Made by a program: the position numbers and the translations under genes. 64,000 nt of DNA from Aminobacterium sp. MB27-C1 (lineage in GTDB: Bacteria; Synergistota; Synergistia; Synergistales; Aminobacteriaceae): positions 1,488,001 to 1,552,000 of the forward strand of contig NZ_CP133089.1 of assembly GCF_030908405.1 (NCBI RefSeq). The letters are read 5' to 3'. Positions 7,759 through 50,299 of this stretch are shown here, piece after piece; positions within the stretch are counted from its first letter, which is position 1; every line of letters begins with the position of its first letter. Under the pieces are notes generated by a model. It saw only the letters and a program-made list of their open reading frames with translations, was not told where the DNA came from and did no database searches.

Positions 7759-9495
7759 CTATTTCGTCAAATCATGCCCTACGAGGTAAGCCAAAATTTC
7801 ACCTACAATAGGAGCCGCTATAGAACTTCCATGTTCTCCTGCTTCAACAACAGCCACAGCAACGTAGCGTGGCTTATCTACCGGTGCATAACCTGCGAAA
7901 AGTGCGTGATCAGCACCATGAGCATTTTGGGCCGTTCCAGTTTTTCCTGCAACAGTTACCCCGAAAGTTCCAGCTCTCCAACCTGTTCCTCCCTTTACAA
8001 CTTTTTCTAATCCCTCTTGAACAATCTGCATATTTTTCTTGGAAATATTCAATTGTTTGGGGGGAACTGCATTTCTTCTATAAAGATAAGGCGTAACTAA
8101 TTCGCCTCCATTAGCAAATACCCCATACATCCGAGCTAATTGAATCGGAGTCATCAAAAGAAAACCTTGTCCAATAGAATAATTGACCGTGTCTCCCTGA
8201 TACCATGATTCCTTTACAACTCTTTCTTTCCATTCACGACCAGCCCTGTTACCAGAAAGCTCCCCAGGAATATCTATCCCTGTCAACTCTCCGACTCCAA
8301 ATTTCTGTCCCCAATTCGCCAGTCTGTTAATTCCTAATTTTATTCCTACTTGATAAAAGTATACATCACATGAACTGCTTAAAGCTTCTTTTAATGATAT
8401 ACTACCATGTCCGCTTCTTTTCCAACACCTAAAAGTTCTACGACCCAATTGAAAAGCTCCGCTACAGAAAAAACTTGTTTTAGGCGTAACTTCCTTTTCT
8501 TCAAGAGCCGCTATGGAAACTAAGGCCTTAAATGTGGATGCAGGAGGATATACTCCCGCAATACTCCGATCAAGCATAGGCCGCTCCGGGTCGTTCAGCA
8601 ATGACCGCCATTCCTTAGCGGACACTCCCCAAGCCAAGGGGTTATTATCATAAGAAGGGGAGGTATAGAGCACTAAAACAGCTCCTGTTTCAACATCCAA
8701 CGCTACAACAGCTCCTCTATTGCCCTCTATAAGATCAGCCGCTAATCTCTGCGCCCCTAAATCAAGAGTAAGGTAGAGATCTTGTCCCTTCACTGGAGGC
8801 TTAAAATCCAGATCTTGAACGCGTCTTCCCCGGGCATCAACTTCTATTGATTCTTCACCGGGAAGTCCTCGTAAAAGAGATTCATATGAATACTCTACGC
8901 CAGCTTTGCCTATAATATCTCCGCCTACATAATCCCCATCTCGTTTCGACTTCAACTCATCTTCACTTATTTCAGCAACATAACCTGTAACATTTGCAGT
9001 CAAAGCCCCTGAAGGATAGGTTCGACGCCATACTGGAACAGGGAAAAGCTGAGAAGGGAATTCCGGGTCAGCAATAAGTTCTGCCATTTGGGTCAATGTA
9101 AGATTTGAAACAACGCGTACAACCCGATAAGGCGCCCAATATTGCCGCTTCACGGTGGCTTTTATTTCTTCAGGCGTTAATGGGATGCCATGTTTTTGGA
9201 ATATCCTTGATGTTTTAACTGCAAGTTCATCTTTTTCGAGATCAAGAGGATACCCCATAATATCGAAGGTGCGGATATTAATTGCCAAAGGGGCACCATT
9301 ACGGTCAAAAATATTTCCACGAGATGGTGCAAGGCGAATAAATCGAAGACGATTATTAGCCGCTAGTTTAATATAGCTATCGGCATGGATAATCTGAAAA
9401 AAGTAAAGGGCCACGGCAAGTAAAGCTATAGAGCCAAGGATGACTACTCTCCATATGCGGAGACGTCGATCTATATCAGTTCGAGAATTAGACAT
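7759..9495 (-). CDS. mrdA: Penicillin-binding protein 2 (peptidoglycan D,D-transpeptidase MrdA)
   Basis: This class B penicillin-binding protein of about 578 residues has one N-terminal membrane anchor (WRVVILGSIALLAVALYFF), a pedestal/dimerisation domain and a C-terminal transpeptidase domain. The catalytic motifs are SXXK in PASTFKAL, SXN in SSCD (Ser-Ser-Cys at the second motif) and KTGTAQN. PBP2 crosslinks new wall during elongation with RodA. An upstream in-frame extension exists, but the ATG at 9493-9495 gives the usual short cytoplasmic N-terminus and a GGAGG site; the start then overlaps the mreD end by 8 bases. It lies in the order mreB-mreC-mreD-mrdA. Confidence 0.95.
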   Translation of the reverse strand: MSNSRTDIDRRLRIWRVVILGSIALLAVALYFFQIIHADSYIKLAANNRLRFIRLAPSRGNIFDRNGAPLAINIRTFDIMGYPLDLEKDELAVKTSRIFQKHGIPLTPEEIKATVKRQYWAPYRVVRVVSNLTLTQMAELIADPEFPSQLFPVPVWRRTYPSGALTANVTGYVAEISEDELKSKRDGDYVGGDIIGKAGVEYSYESLLRGLPGEESIEVDARGRRVQDLDFKPPVKGQDLYLTLDLGAQRLAADLIEGNRGAVVALDVETGAVLVLYTSPSYDNNPLAWGVSAKEWRSLLNDPERPMLDRSIAGVYPPASTFKALVSIAALEEKEVTPKTSFFCSGAFQLGRRTFRCWKRSGHGSISLKEALSSSCDVYFYQVGIKLGINRLANWGQKFGVGELTGIDIPGELSGNRAGREWKERVVKESWYQGDTVNYSIGQGFLLMTPIQLARMYGVFANGGELVTPYLYRRNAVPPKQLNISKKNMQIVQEGLEKVVKGGTGWRAGTFGVTVAGKTGTAQNAHGADHALFAGYAPVDKPRYVAVAVVEAGEHGSSIAAPIVGEILAYLVGHDLTK

Positions 9496-33699: not shown

Positions 33700-33704
33700 A
33701 AAAG

Positions 33705-33732
33705 CAGAGCGGCTTCAAAAGAAGCCGCTCTG
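33705..33732. terminator. Bidirectional terminator between tetR and guaA
   Basis: A 12-base perfect stem CAGAGCGGCTTC/GAAGCCGCTCTG closes on a four-base loop. The minus-strand side is followed by CTTTTTC and serves guaA; the plus-strand side has only an AT-rich tail and would serve the MATE-tetR operon. Confidence 0.88.
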
Positions 33733-33759
33733 AATATTTATAGAATTATTTGTAAGCGC

Positions 33760-35292
33760 TTACTCCCACTCTATAGTGGAGGGTGGCTTACTGGTAACAT
33801 CAAGGACAACCCTGTTAATTCCCTTAACAGCATTACAAATTCTCCGAGACGTTCTATCTAATACATCGTAAGGAACACGCACCCAATCAGCAGTCATTCC
33901 ATCTGCAGATTCAACTGCACGAAGAGCAACCACTTCAGCGTAGGTTCTTGAATCTCCCATAACTCCTACGGTCTTAACTGGCAAAAGAATACAGAAAGAC
34001 TGCCACACTGTAGGATAGAGGTCACTCTTTGAAAACTCTTCTCTAAAGATTTCATCTGCAGCTCTTAATGTCTCAAGACGTTCTTTTGTAAGTTCTCCCA
34101 AGCATCTCACTGCCAGGCCAGGACCAGGGAAAGGCTGTCTATTAACGATATCGTCTGGAATTCCCAATAATGTACCTATTGTCCGCACTTCGTCTTTAAA
34201 AAGATCGCGCAGAGGTTCAAGAACCTTTAGTTTCATATCATCAGGCAATCCACCAACATTATGATGGCTCTTAATGACAGAAGCACCTTTTCCTTTTTGA
34301 CCGCTCTCAATAACGTCTGGGTAGAGAGTTCCCTGAAGAAGCCATTCTGCATCCTCAACTTTAGCTGCTTCCGCTTCAAAAACGCGTATAAAGGTCTCCC
34401 CTATTATCTTTCGTTTTCGTTCAGGATCGGTAACACCCTTTAGGGCTTCCAAGAAACGATCACTAGCGTCCACATAATGCACATTAAGATCTAATTGCTT
34501 ATATTGCTCCAAAACTCGCTCAGCTTCCTGATACCTTAATAAACCATTATTAACAAATATACATTCGAGACGATCACCAATAGCCTTTGCAGTCAACACA
34601 GCAGCGACAGTTGAATCGACTCCGCCAGAAAGACCACAAATGACTCTAGTATTCTGGGTCGTCTTTTTTATATCCTCAACCATGGTATCAATCCAGTTTC
34701 CAAGATCCCAATCTCCAGTACATGAACAAATATTGAAAAGGAAGTTGGAAAGAATTGCCGTTCCGTTCTGCGTATGAGCAACTTCAGGATGAAACTGCAA
34801 TCCCCAAATATGTTTTTCTTCCATTGCGAAGGCTGCAGGAACCCCACCATCTGTTTCTGCCAAAAGCTTTGCCCCATCTGGAAGTTTGGAAATATGATCA
34901 CCATGACTCATCCATACTTCAAATGTCTCAGGCACACTCTTCAAAAGCAAAGAATTCAACTCTTTCAGAGAAATGGCTGTTCGCCCATACTCCCGGCTTA
35001 CTCCGGAATCGACATGCCCACCTAAAAGTTTTGTCAAAAGCTGCATTCCGTAACATACTCCCAAAATAGGAACACCAATATTAAAAAGATCTGCAGAAAC
35101 AGTTGGGCTGCCTTCTTCCATAACGCTCTGAGGTCCACCAGATATAATAACGCCACGAGGCTGACGTTGACGAATATCGTCAACAGAGGTATCCCAAGGC
35201 AATATTTCGCTATGCACCTTCAGTTCCCTTATTCTTCTAGCTATCAGCTGTGTGAACTGAGAGCCACAATCAAGAATCACTATATTATCCAT
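33760..35292 (-). CDS. guaA: GMP synthase (glutamine-hydrolysing)
   Basis: The 510-residue enzyme has an N-terminal class I glutamine amidotransferase domain (GVCYGMQLL with the nucleophile Cys, HPEVAHT) and a C-terminal ATP pyrophosphatase domain (GLSGGVDSTVAAVL, then KSHHNVGGLP and the end KPPSTIEWE). It converts XMP to GMP. GGAGG precedes the ATG. It stands alone between two terminators; I see no purine riboswitch in the short leader. Confidence 0.98.
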   Translation of the reverse strand: MDNIVILDCGSQFTQLIARRIRELKVHSEILPWDTSVDDIRQRQPRGVIISGGPQSVMEEGSPTVSADLFNIGVPILGVCYGMQLLTKLLGGHVDSGVSREYGRTAISLKELNSLLLKSVPETFEVWMSHGDHISKLPDGAKLLAETDGGVPAAFAMEEKHIWGLQFHPEVAHTQNGTAILSNFLFNICSCTGDWDLGNWIDTMVEDIKKTTQNTRVICGLSGGVDSTVAAVLTAKAIGDRLECIFVNNGLLRYQEAERVLEQYKQLDLNVHYVDASDRFLEALKGVTDPERKRKIIGETFIRVFEAEAAKVEDAEWLLQGTLYPDVIESGQKGKGASVIKSHHNVGGLPDDMKLKVLEPLRDLFKDEVRTIGTLLGIPDDIVNRQPFPGPGLAVRCLGELTKERLETLRAADEIFREEFSKSDLYPTVWQSFCILLPVKTVGVMGDSRTYAEVVALRAVESADGMTADWVRVPYDVLDRTSRRICNAVKGINRVVLDVTSKPPSTIEWE

Positions 35293-48331: not shown

Positions 48332-49672
48332 TTAACGTAAACCATTCCACATGATCATAATGATAGCTATAGGAGCAAAAAAGCGCAGTATCAAAAGCCA
48401 TGGAGACATAAGAGCAAAGTCAAGTCGGCCATTGTTGGAAACATCATCTTTGATTCTATCTGTTACAACCCATCCAACAAATAAAGAGATCAAAAGACCA
48501 CCTGTAGTCAAAAGGATGTTATTGCATACCCAGTCCATGGCATCAAGAAAACTCTTTCCAAAGAGATTAATAGGATAGGCTCCCTGAGAAAGAGCCGATG
48601 GAATTCCGAGAAGAAAGATAGCTGTTCCCATAAGAAAGCAACTTTTTCTTCTACTCCATTTCAACTCATCTTTACAGTAAGATACAACAACCTCGAAAAG
48701 AGATACTGACGAGGTAAGAGCAGCTATAAAGAGAAGTGCAAAAAAGAGCGCTGACCAGACCATACCGCCCCACATTTTCGAAAAAACTGCGGGCAAAGTT
48801 ATAAAAGTGAGACCCGCCCCAGCCCCTGCATCGATGCCAAAAGAAAAAACAGTAGGGAAAATGATCAATCCAGCAAGAAAAGCAACAAGGGTATCAAGAA
48901 GAGTAACTGTAGCAACTGATTTAGGAATATTTTCATTCTTACCAATGTAGCTGCCAAAAGTTATGAGAATTCCCATACCGAGAGAAAGTGAATAAAAAGC
49001 TTGTCCTAAAGCATCAATAATAGTACTTCCTGTAACTTTTGAAAAATCTGGCTTAAGATAAAAAGCAATACCTTTTGATGCGCCTGGAAGCGTCAAAGCC
49101 CTGACAACAAGTATCAGTATGATAAGGAAAAGTCCTGGCATTAGAATTTTGCTGGCCCGTTCAATACCTTGACCAACACCTTTATACACCACCATAACAA
49201 CCATAAGCATAAAAGCAAAAAAAGCCAGAAGAACTTGAGTAGGATTAGCAATAAAACCTAAAAAAGCATTCTGTACAGCCGACGTATCATTAAGAGACAT
49301 AAGGCCTGTGAAAGACTTAAAAATATAAGCGAATGTCCAACCTCCGATAACGGCATAATAAGAAAGAATAATAAAGGCTACAGCCAGCCCCATCCAACCA
49401 ACGAGAGGCCAGGCGCCTCCTTTTAGCTCTTTGAAAGCTCCCACAGCATTCTTTTTCGCTGCGCGACCAATAGCAAACTCTGCCAACATTACTGATGCTC
49501 CTATAGTAAATGCCAAAGCAATGTATATCACGAGAAATGCAGCTCCACCATTTTTACCCGTAATATAGGGGAAACGCCAGATATTTCCAAGACCAACTGC
49601 TGATCCCGCTGACGCAAGAAGAAAGCCAACCCGGCTTCCCCACTGCTCCCTTTCTTTTTCTTCTTGTCTCAT
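48332..49672 (-). CDS. LeuT-type neurotransmitter:sodium symporter, probably for branched-chain amino acids
   Basis: The protein of about 446 residues has 11-12 membrane segments. The first carries the unwound substrate/sodium site GSAVGLGNIWRFPYITGKNGG, and ITFGSYIGKNENIPKS matches the segment 6 region. Bacterial members (LeuT, MhsT, TnaT) import hydrophobic amino acids with Na+. ATG 49672 has GGGAGGG upstream. The gene is preceded by a promoter, an Ile/Leu/Val-rich leader peptide and a terminator that could be disabled by an alternative fold, so expression should rise when isoleucine, leucine or valine is short. Substrate specificity is inferred from that control. Confidence 0.9.
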   Translation of the reverse strand: MRQEEKEREQWGSRVGFLLASAGSAVGLGNIWRFPYITGKNGGAAFLVIYIALAFTIGASVMLAEFAIGRAAKKNAVGAFKELKGGAWPLVGWMGLAVAFIILSYYAVIGGWTFAYIFKSFTGLMSLNDTSAVQNAFLGFIANPTQVLLAFFAFMLMVVMVVYKGVGQGIERASKILMPGLFLIILILVVRALTLPGASKGIAFYLKPDFSKVTGSTIIDALGQAFYSLSLGMGILITFGSYIGKNENIPKSVATVTLLDTLVAFLAGLIIFPTVFSFGIDAGAGAGLTFITLPAVFSKMWGGMVWSALFFALLFIAALTSSVSLFEVVVSYCKDELKWSRRKSCFLMGTAIFLLGIPSALSQGAYPINLFGKSFLDAMDWVCNNILLTTGGLLISLFVGWVVTDRIKDDVSNNGRLDFALMSPWLLILRFFAPIAIIMIMWNGLR

Positions 49673-49790: not shown

Positions 49791-49880
49791 AAAAAAAAGG
49801 GCCGAACCCTAAAAAGGGCCCGACCCCGAAAAGTCTGCTGGCTAAAATCAAATGCCAGTAGGCGCTCCGGAAGAGGGCCC
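49791..49880 (-). promoter_or_regulatory. Transcription attenuator of the LeuT-type transporter gene
   Basis: On the minus strand a 12-pair stem (arms 49815-49826 and 49799-49810, four-T loop, some G-T pairs) is followed by eight T at 49791-49798: a strong terminator. Upstream, GGGCCCTCTTCC (49869-49880) inside the leader peptide gene can pair with GGGGTCGGGCCC (49816-49827), which is the 5' arm of the terminator, with a small CTGGC/GCCAG hairpin (49838-49858) between. These folds exclude each other, as in amino acid biosynthetic attenuators. Confidence 0.85.
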
Positions 49881-49943
49881 GCAGCTAATAATAACGAGGA
49901 GTATAATTATTATGTTAACTAAAGTATTTCGATTTATAATCAC
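49848..49943 (-). CDS. Branched-chain-amino-acid-rich leader peptide (31 residues)
   Basis: The open frame starts at GTG 49941-49943 with AAGGAGGGG six bases upstream and ends at TGA 49848-49850. Among its 31 residues are nine Ile, three Leu and two internal Val, including an uninterrupted NIIIILLVIIS core at residues 10-20; the C-terminal part (CGPSSGAPTGI) is encoded by the RNA that forms the antiterminator arm. A ribosome stalled at the Ile/Leu/Val codons would leave that arm free and allow readthrough; a ribosome at the stop codon would cover it and let the terminator form. The product is probably not functional as a peptide. It is too short for usual gene finders. Confidence 0.87.
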   Translation of the reverse strand: MIINRNTLVNIIIILLVIISCGPSSGAPTGI

Positions 49944-49994
49944 TACGTTCCCCTCCTTGCCTCTGGTGTATTTTGTATCCTCGAAAGTGGCGCT

Positions 49995-50023
49995 ATTCTA
50001 TATGTTATTTTCAGACTTGTCAA
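49995..50023 (-). promoter_or_regulatory. Promoter of the leader peptide-transporter operon
   Basis: On the minus strand a perfect TTGACA (50018-50023) and TAGAAT (49995-50000) are 17 bases apart. The predicted start near 49988 lies about 45 bases before the leader peptide GTG. Confidence 0.85.
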
Positions 50024-50141: not shown

Positions 50142-50215
50142 TGGGGAATGGTGCAACGGCAGCACGCCTGACTCTGGATCAGGTAATCCTGGTTCGAATC
50201 CAGGTTCCCCAGCCA
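50142..50215 (+). tRNA. tRNA-Gln (CTG anticodon)
   Basis: All cloverleaf parts are present: acceptor TGGGGAA/TTCCCCA, anticodon stem CCTGA/TCAGG around loop CTCTGGA (anticodon CTG, reads CAG), and T-loop GGTTCGAATCC. The discriminator is G and CCA is encoded. Confidence 0.96.
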
Positions 50216-50223
50216 GAAAAAGA

Positions 50224-50299
50224 GGCCCCATCGACTAGTGGTCAAGGTCGTCACCCTCTCAAGGTGGAGACACGGGTTCGAATCCCGTTGGGGCTACCA
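50224..50299 (+). tRNA. tRNA-Glu (CTC anticodon)
   Basis: Acceptor GGCCCCA/TGGGGCT, anticodon stem TCACC/GGTGG with loop CTCTCAA (anticodon CTC, reads GAG), T arm ACGGG-TTCGAAT-CCCGT, discriminator A and an encoded CCA. It lies eight bases after tRNA-Gln and is probably cotranscribed. Confidence 0.96.

Follow-up and report, generated by a model that had tools for sequence, protein, structure and literature searches.

The window analysed in this study is a stretch of 64,000 nucleotides from Aminobacterium sp. MB27-C1, to which all coordinates refer unless another locus is named. On its minus strand, at 48332..49672, lies a gene encoding a 446-residue transporter of the sodium:neurotransmitter-symporter (NSS) family, whose closest relative of solved structure is MhsT. 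This gene is preceded by a leader locus on the same strand. A sigma-70-type promoter, TTGACA-17-TAGAAT (49995..50023), drives the leader transcript; it matches the consensus at 11 of 12 positions and is kept in two congeneric genomes, G001 (TTGACA..TAGAAT) and G002 (TTGACA..TAAGAT). The Shine-Dalgarno sequence AAGGAGGGG (49950..49958) ends 6 nt before the GTG start of a leader open reading frame of 31 codons (49848..49943), which reads MIINRNTLVNIIIILLVIISCGPSSGAPTGI. Codons 8-19 (49887..49922), TTA GTT AAC ATA ATA ATT ATA CTC CTC GTT ATT ATT, specify Ile, Leu or Val in 11 of 12 cases and are referred to below as the control codons. Two tRNA genes are found on the opposite strand at 50142-50296, about 120 bp upstream of the promoter, and a tRNA sequence is also present upstream of the orthologous leader of G001.

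The RNA downstream of the control codons can adopt two sets of pairings. Directly 3' of these codons, regions 1 and 2 can form a pause hairpin, GCUGCGGG/UCCGGAGC (49864..49885, minus strand), with the pairing GCUGCRGG/CCYGGAGC. The same part of the leader frame contains the antiterminator 5' strand, GGGCCCUCUUCCGGAG (49865..49880, minus strand), whereas region 3, the antiterminator 3' strand (49816..49833, minus strand), contains the terminator 5' arm, CUUUUCGGGGUCGGGCCC. In the antiterminator, 5'-GGGCCC-UC-UUCCGGAG (49880-49865) pairs with 5'-CUU(UU)CGGGG-UC-GGGCCC (49833-49816), which takes up the terminator 5' arm and, in this sequence, gives 14 bp with a 2x2 internal loop. A hairpin around the leader stop codon, CUGGC/GCCAG (49838..49858, minus strand), is enclosed by the antiterminator. 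The intrinsic terminator (regions 3:4; 49791..49827, minus strand) consists of a hairpin of 12-13 pairs at 49827-49798, followed by eight T at 49798-49791, which are eight U in the transcript. The original prediction had described a consensus promoter, a 31-codon frame that has a strong ribosome site and a core rich in Ile, Leu and Val, a 12-pair terminator with eight T, and an alternative pairing of the terminator 5' arm within the leader frame, and all four of these claims held. In folding, the complete leader surpasses dinucleotide shuffles by 3.0 sd, 1 of 200 shuffles being equally good. Nevertheless, chance is excluded chiefly because the same elements precede the orthologous gene in all nine genomes described below, and because relatives were found with covariance models.

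With regard to conservation, 183 genomes of the order were searched, and nine, belonging to three genera of three families, were found to possess an orthologue of the transporter at the threshold of at least 71% identity. All nine close orthologues keep the leader frame, the I/L/V(M) block and the hairpins. The Shine-Dalgarno match of 6-7 nt, the leader frame, the position of the stop codon and the terminator are conserved in 9/9, and the insertions and deletions within the frame are multiples of 3. The orthologous leader peptides include MNVNLNILINIIIILLVIISCGSSSGVPTGV, MKKPSCFIVNIIVSLVVISCRSHPGALVGV and MKGFDRIAVSLMISLLGLISARSLPGALACP. The prediction would have been refuted had related genomes kept the transporter without a conserved leader, and it survived this check. 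Leaders of this kind were looked for and found to be absent at the four NSS paralogues of the window's genome and at 22 loci with 54-64% identical NSS proteins in other genomes. A scan of named public genomes for relatives of the transporter yielded one more distant relative. The transporter gene is broken or shortened in two further genomes of the same genus as some of the orthologues: the leader is intact in one (G114, locus L082), and the attenuator carries an 11-base insertion in the other (G116, locus L084), where gene and switch look as if they might be decaying together.

Both pairings are supported by covariation. Over the nine sequences, the pause hairpin is paired in 95% of cells and includes a G-C/A-U compensatory pair. 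The antiterminator is found in register in all nine, with 126 of 144 cells paired over 16 positions; compensatory changes occur between families (G-C/A-U and C-G/U-A) and within the genus, where one pair is C-G in the window's genome, U-A in G002 and U-G in G001. The stop-codon hairpin is present in all three families, with compensatory changes and 78% of cells paired. In a MAFFT alignment, the state comprising pause, stop and terminator hairpins shows 91.3% of cells paired and the antiterminator 90.5%, against 29-69% for slid partners. As the nine orthologues fall in three genera, the number of independent covariation events is small. The parts, their conservation, their covariation and the mutual exclusivity of the two pairings are established by comparing sequences. 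In this way the locus fulfils the structural criteria of a leader-peptide attenuator, namely a short frame with a Shine-Dalgarno sequence near a promoter, relevant control codons, and an exclusive terminator and antiterminator. The relevance of the control codons to the transporter itself rests on its homology to MhsT and LeuT.

The regulated protein is a full-length member of the NSS/SLC6 family, as shown by its match to the SNF profile (Pfam PF00209, 3.6e-67). Among proteins of known structure, MhsT (PDB 4us3) was the best match (3e-107, residues 4-442), followed by LeuT (PDB 2a65; 2e-48). These matches are at the level of the family only, and the substrate of the transporter is inferred. 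Its relatives are transporters of hydrophobic amino acids, and MhsT is not strictly specific for branched-chain amino acids. The Na+-coupled uptake of Ile, Leu and Val is therefore an inference from relatives, without uptake data, and the import of branched-chain amino acids in response to charged tRNA-Ile, -Leu and -Val, as originally predicted, remains inferred. A search for ilvC gave no match in the window's genome or its two congeners, whereas it detected the gene in all nine other genomes examined and in 14 control genomes. Two of the three genomes of the genus carry ilvD, and leuA is present in the window's genome and in G001. From the absence of ilvC, it is inferred that the usual route to valine and isoleucine is probably closed to this genus. 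Given that ilvC is lacking, uptake should matter for Ile and Val, and this gives a reason to link an uptake gene to a shortage of Ile, Leu and Val.

We consider it very likely (probability of about 0.88) that the element is a ribosome-mediated transcription attenuator which controls the transporter gene by sensing charged tRNA-Ile, -Leu and -Val, although no experimental data are available. When these tRNAs are charged, the ribosome would translate the leader through the core and cover region 2, so that region 3 would pair with region 4 and transcription would end at about 49791. Scarcity of these charged tRNAs would instead make the ribosome stall on codons 8-19, leaving region 2 free. Region 2 would then pair with region 3 in the 14-bp antiterminator enclosing the stop-codon hairpin, no terminator would form, and the transporter would be made. 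The translation of the leader, the stalling at uncharged tRNA, the termination near 49791 and the identity of the substrate are all inferred.

The switch was examined by folding over the family of related leaders described below. The native duplex between regions 2 and 3 has a mean energy of -27.8 kcal/mol in 79 members, versus -21.6 kcal/mol when partners are swapped (sd of the permuted mean 0.39). In 37 dereplicated members (less than 75% similarity), the corresponding values are -24.7 and -19.6 kcal/mol (sd 0.50), and none of 10,000 permutations was as low. Folding was also performed with a 28-nt ribosome mask on transcripts reaching the end of region 3, which is a crude model yielding equilibrium folds and not kinetics. 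Averaged over 74 leaders, region 2 binds the terminator 5' arm with an occupancy of 0.57-0.69 when the A site lies 2-10 codons before the core, and of 0.00-0.08 once the A site has advanced 1-8 codons beyond the core start. A ribosome placed at the stop codon gives a mean antiterminator value of 0.42; in that position the outcome would rest on the second terminator arm, which emerges next. Without a ribosome, the prefix RNA still forms the antiterminator (mean 0.57). The terminator is strongly favoured only in the full-length RNA, which in the window's genome folds into it. In the masked folding of this same leader, stalls at codons 11-16 give 0.23-0.47, those at codons 17-18 give 0.70-0.76, and one at codon 19 gives 0.02; the low occupancy for codons 11-16 arises because the AU-rich leader folds on itself. 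This simple model gives the expected switch between stalls before the core and stalls on it, with some codons of the window's genome and the stop-codon position ambiguous. Together with the conserved leader and the compensatory changes, the proposal of an attenuator of the ilv/leu type is supported.

The original prediction covered a single member of what proved to be a family: throughout the Synergistota, the same core, with other codons, stands before ilv, leu, met, hom, aro and pan genes. A first covariance model (R1), built from the nine orthologous leaders, matched many genomes, with relatives at E values down to 1e-18 to 1e-24 located before functionally matching genes. From 42 diverse matches a second model (R2) was derived, which found matches in 138 of 188 genomes of the phylum at E<=1e-3; this cut-off admits some ordinary terminators, and the stronger matches were relied on. 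At E<=1e-10, matches cover all ten families of the order and, by a manual count of the match table, about 94 genomes and 40 of 63 genera. A family outside the order but within the phylum has leaders such as MQAYNSSMGFMVIIALVLVIISLRRGSPPGVIGV with the same core. All members share one RNA core, usually encoding ..CGSPPGA.., and the position of the control codons just 5' of this core is common to the whole family. The leader in the window scores 79.9 bits with R2, of whose training alignment it was part. The background reaches 20.4 bits in E. coli (73 kb searched) and 25.2 bits at the guaA terminator (window 33700-33808), a plain terminator which, at 25 bits, served as a measure of background. 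Matches near 20-26 bits were mostly plain terminators despite small automatic E-values, as was the match at the end of E. coli thrC, and they were not counted.

The leaders and the genes behind them were read for 81 family matches, and the codons just 5' of the core were found to match the downstream gene: Ile, Val and Leu before ilvN/ilvC, Leu before leuA/leuC, Met before metNIQ, Thr and Met before homoserine dehydrogenase, and Phe, Tyr and Trp before aromatic-related genes. The window's genome carries nine further attenuators of this family (G000:C1:2156794, 230775, 1637663, 2166597, 850966, 848307, 764358, 1604999 and 53591; loci L067-L071 and L143-L145), of which four have aromatic codons and two controlled proteins have no Pfam family. 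Their control blocks are SLSLLLLG before leuA, VTITTMTT before homoserine dehydrogenase, MMMCMC before metN, metI and metQ, LILILALII before a lactate-permease-family transporter and a 2-hydroxyacid racemase (LarAH10), and VVVII before an FAD-dependent protein. The aromatic blocks are FFYYWF before a 408-aa protein assigned to no family, along with a HisC-like aminotransferase, FYFYFWF before a sodium:solute symporter and an enzyme of the malate/sulfolactate-dehydrogenase type, FFEYYY before an AMP-binding ligase (L143:739-1998), and FFFGFWY before a 394-aa protein, likewise assigned to no family, and an M20 peptidase (L145:743-3143). The last two suggest that aromatic amino acids could be recovered from aryl acids or peptides. 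In another genome of the phylum, G043, the blocks are FGMGTMTT before homoserine dehydrogenase, FFFSFFF before a DAHP synthase located 1.2 kb downstream of the leader, IIIIAIII before ilvN/ilvC, and NLLGLLDH before leuC. The ilvN/ilvC genes of this genome are preceded by two tandem copies of the Ile attenuator (L076:8207-8317 and 8447-8622), the second of which runs into N and may therefore be an assembly artefact.

The fit between codons and genes was assessed in a permutation test with 46 leaders standing before independently named genes (ilv, leu, met, hom), by the fraction of matching residues in a 14-residue window. The score was 23.1, versus 15.6 for permuted labels (sd 0.9; maximum 19.3 in 20,000 shuffles). 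These figures are inflated by related genomes, and no tree correction was applied. The match of codons to genes is shown by sequence comparison, and the element in the window belongs to a Synergistota family that places a single RNA core, with exchanged control codons, before different amino-acid genes.

Three other explanations were weighed, and all of them appear very unlikely. The small frame could encode a functional hydrophobic peptide, acting in the membrane or in trans, in which case the hairpin would only terminate a short gene and the transporter would be transcribed from elsewhere. In favour of this, the peptide is hydrophobic, and action in trans has been described for a leader peptide of Sinorhizobium (PMC7298713). 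However, the peptide varies freely while the RNA complementarity is kept, the block of residues switches to Met, Thr or Phe/Tyr/Trp with the downstream gene, and compensatory changes link the terminator 5' arm to the leader. Alternatively, the nascent peptide itself could be the sensor, a conserved C-terminal motif (often SPPG) arresting or pausing the ribosome according to a free amino acid or the state of EF-P, in place of stalling by uncharged tRNA at the control codons. PPG is a known pausing motif and is encoded in the core of 33 of the 81 family leaders, and the codon positions in the core do not allow a decision between constraint at the level of the RNA and of the peptide. In contrast, neither the leader in the window (GPSSGAP) nor its eight orthologues contain PP, and the variable block fits the amino acid made by the operon, as sensing of tRNA predicts.

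An RNA-binding protein, a riboswitch or a T-box could also use the same terminator and antiterminator, the leader frame being incidental, given that such switches are common to all these classes. Against this, the only Rfam matches above the gathering cut-off in the window are tRNAs, nine family loci have none at threshold, and the T-box model is matched in neither. Moreover, the Shine-Dalgarno sequence, the start, the frame and the gene-matched codons are conserved in leaders throughout the phylum. Termite-leu, a candidate RNA (PMC2864571), was also suspected, and no Rfam match supports this identity.

Ribosome-mediated attenuation itself is a known mechanism. The leaders of E. coli ilvGMEDA (ilvL) and leuABCD (leuL) likewise possess a frame with tandem Ile/Leu/Val or Leu codons, exclusive 1:2, 2:3 and 3:4 pairings and an intrinsic terminator, but they control enzyme genes, whereas the first Synergistota member drives a transporter. 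R2 does not match ilvL, leuL or thrL in the 73 kb of E. coli that were the only control outside the phylum, and the E. coli attenuators for different amino acids are not known to share one RNA core. Leu and branched-chain attenuators of Staphylococcus aureus and Listeria (PMC5794164, PMC5864092) show that leader frames rich in such codons, with a terminator and antiterminator, occur before ilv genes outside the Proteobacteria; they differ in controlling biosynthesis operons and, to our knowledge, have no relationship to this core, although the sequences were not compared. Actinobacterial ilvB and trp leaders have short frames with branched-chain or Trp codons overlapping terminators, and the trp leaders have conserved complementary triplets; some of these leaders lack identifiable antiterminators, and no core common to several amino acids is reported in the relevant sections (PMC1262725). 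The T-box riboswitches of Firmicutes similarly use one RNA chassis for many amino acids and for transporters, with a codon setting the specificity, but they bind tRNA directly, need no leader translation and were not matched here. A survey of 2010 (PMC2965389) counted only Proteobacteria and Actinobacteria as groups with demonstrated leader-peptide systems, the atypical ermC leader apart, and itself added Firmicutes. Neither a case of attenuation in Synergistota nor an NSS transporter under leader-peptide control was found in the open-licence literature searched. Within the limits of that literature, it is likely that two features are new: the reuse of one core with exchanged control codons for at least five amino-acid groups in most of a phylum, and the attenuation of an NSS transporter.

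A bolder reading is that the core is a multi-purpose chassis, whose region 2 would pair with the terminator arm upon a stall and with the leader's own Shine-Dalgarno sequence when free. The latter pairing would shut off translation of the leader, leaving the terminator free to form; the Pro-Pro-Gly of many members would park the translating ribosome on region 2; and copying of the chassis with exchange of control codons would have carried the family through the phylum, making it a leader-peptide counterpart of the T-box. We regard this reading as unlikely. The Shine-Dalgarno sequence in the window is complementary to region 2, and across the family this duplex reaches -12.4 kcal/mol, versus -8.2 kcal/mol for shuffled region 2. 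This complementarity or the Pro-Pro-Gly in the core could conceivably set the default state, although neither is established.

Synergistota are a phylum of amino-acid fermenters whose gene regulation is little known. If the attenuator reading is correct, a single reusable element controls much of the synthesis and uptake of amino acids in these bacteria, and the family offers a natural series for studying how attenuators change specificity yet keep the switch. The control codons could also be read as a functional label, by which unknown genes behind Ile/Val, Leu or Phe/Tyr/Trp leaders, and likewise transporters such as the one in the window, gain a predicted amino acid. At L160, L155, L153, L150 and L151, leaders ending VLVLLIIGGPPSGGFG with the same type of attenuator precede a conserved region with unassigned proteins, two of which were tested and had no Pfam or NCBIfam match. 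In G043, the block VVVVVDV precedes panB (L078:3542-4513). The pantothenate pathway starts from a valine precursor and aspartate, and, on the basis of this pathway knowledge, the codons fit valine and aspartate, both of which are tied to pantothenate synthesis.
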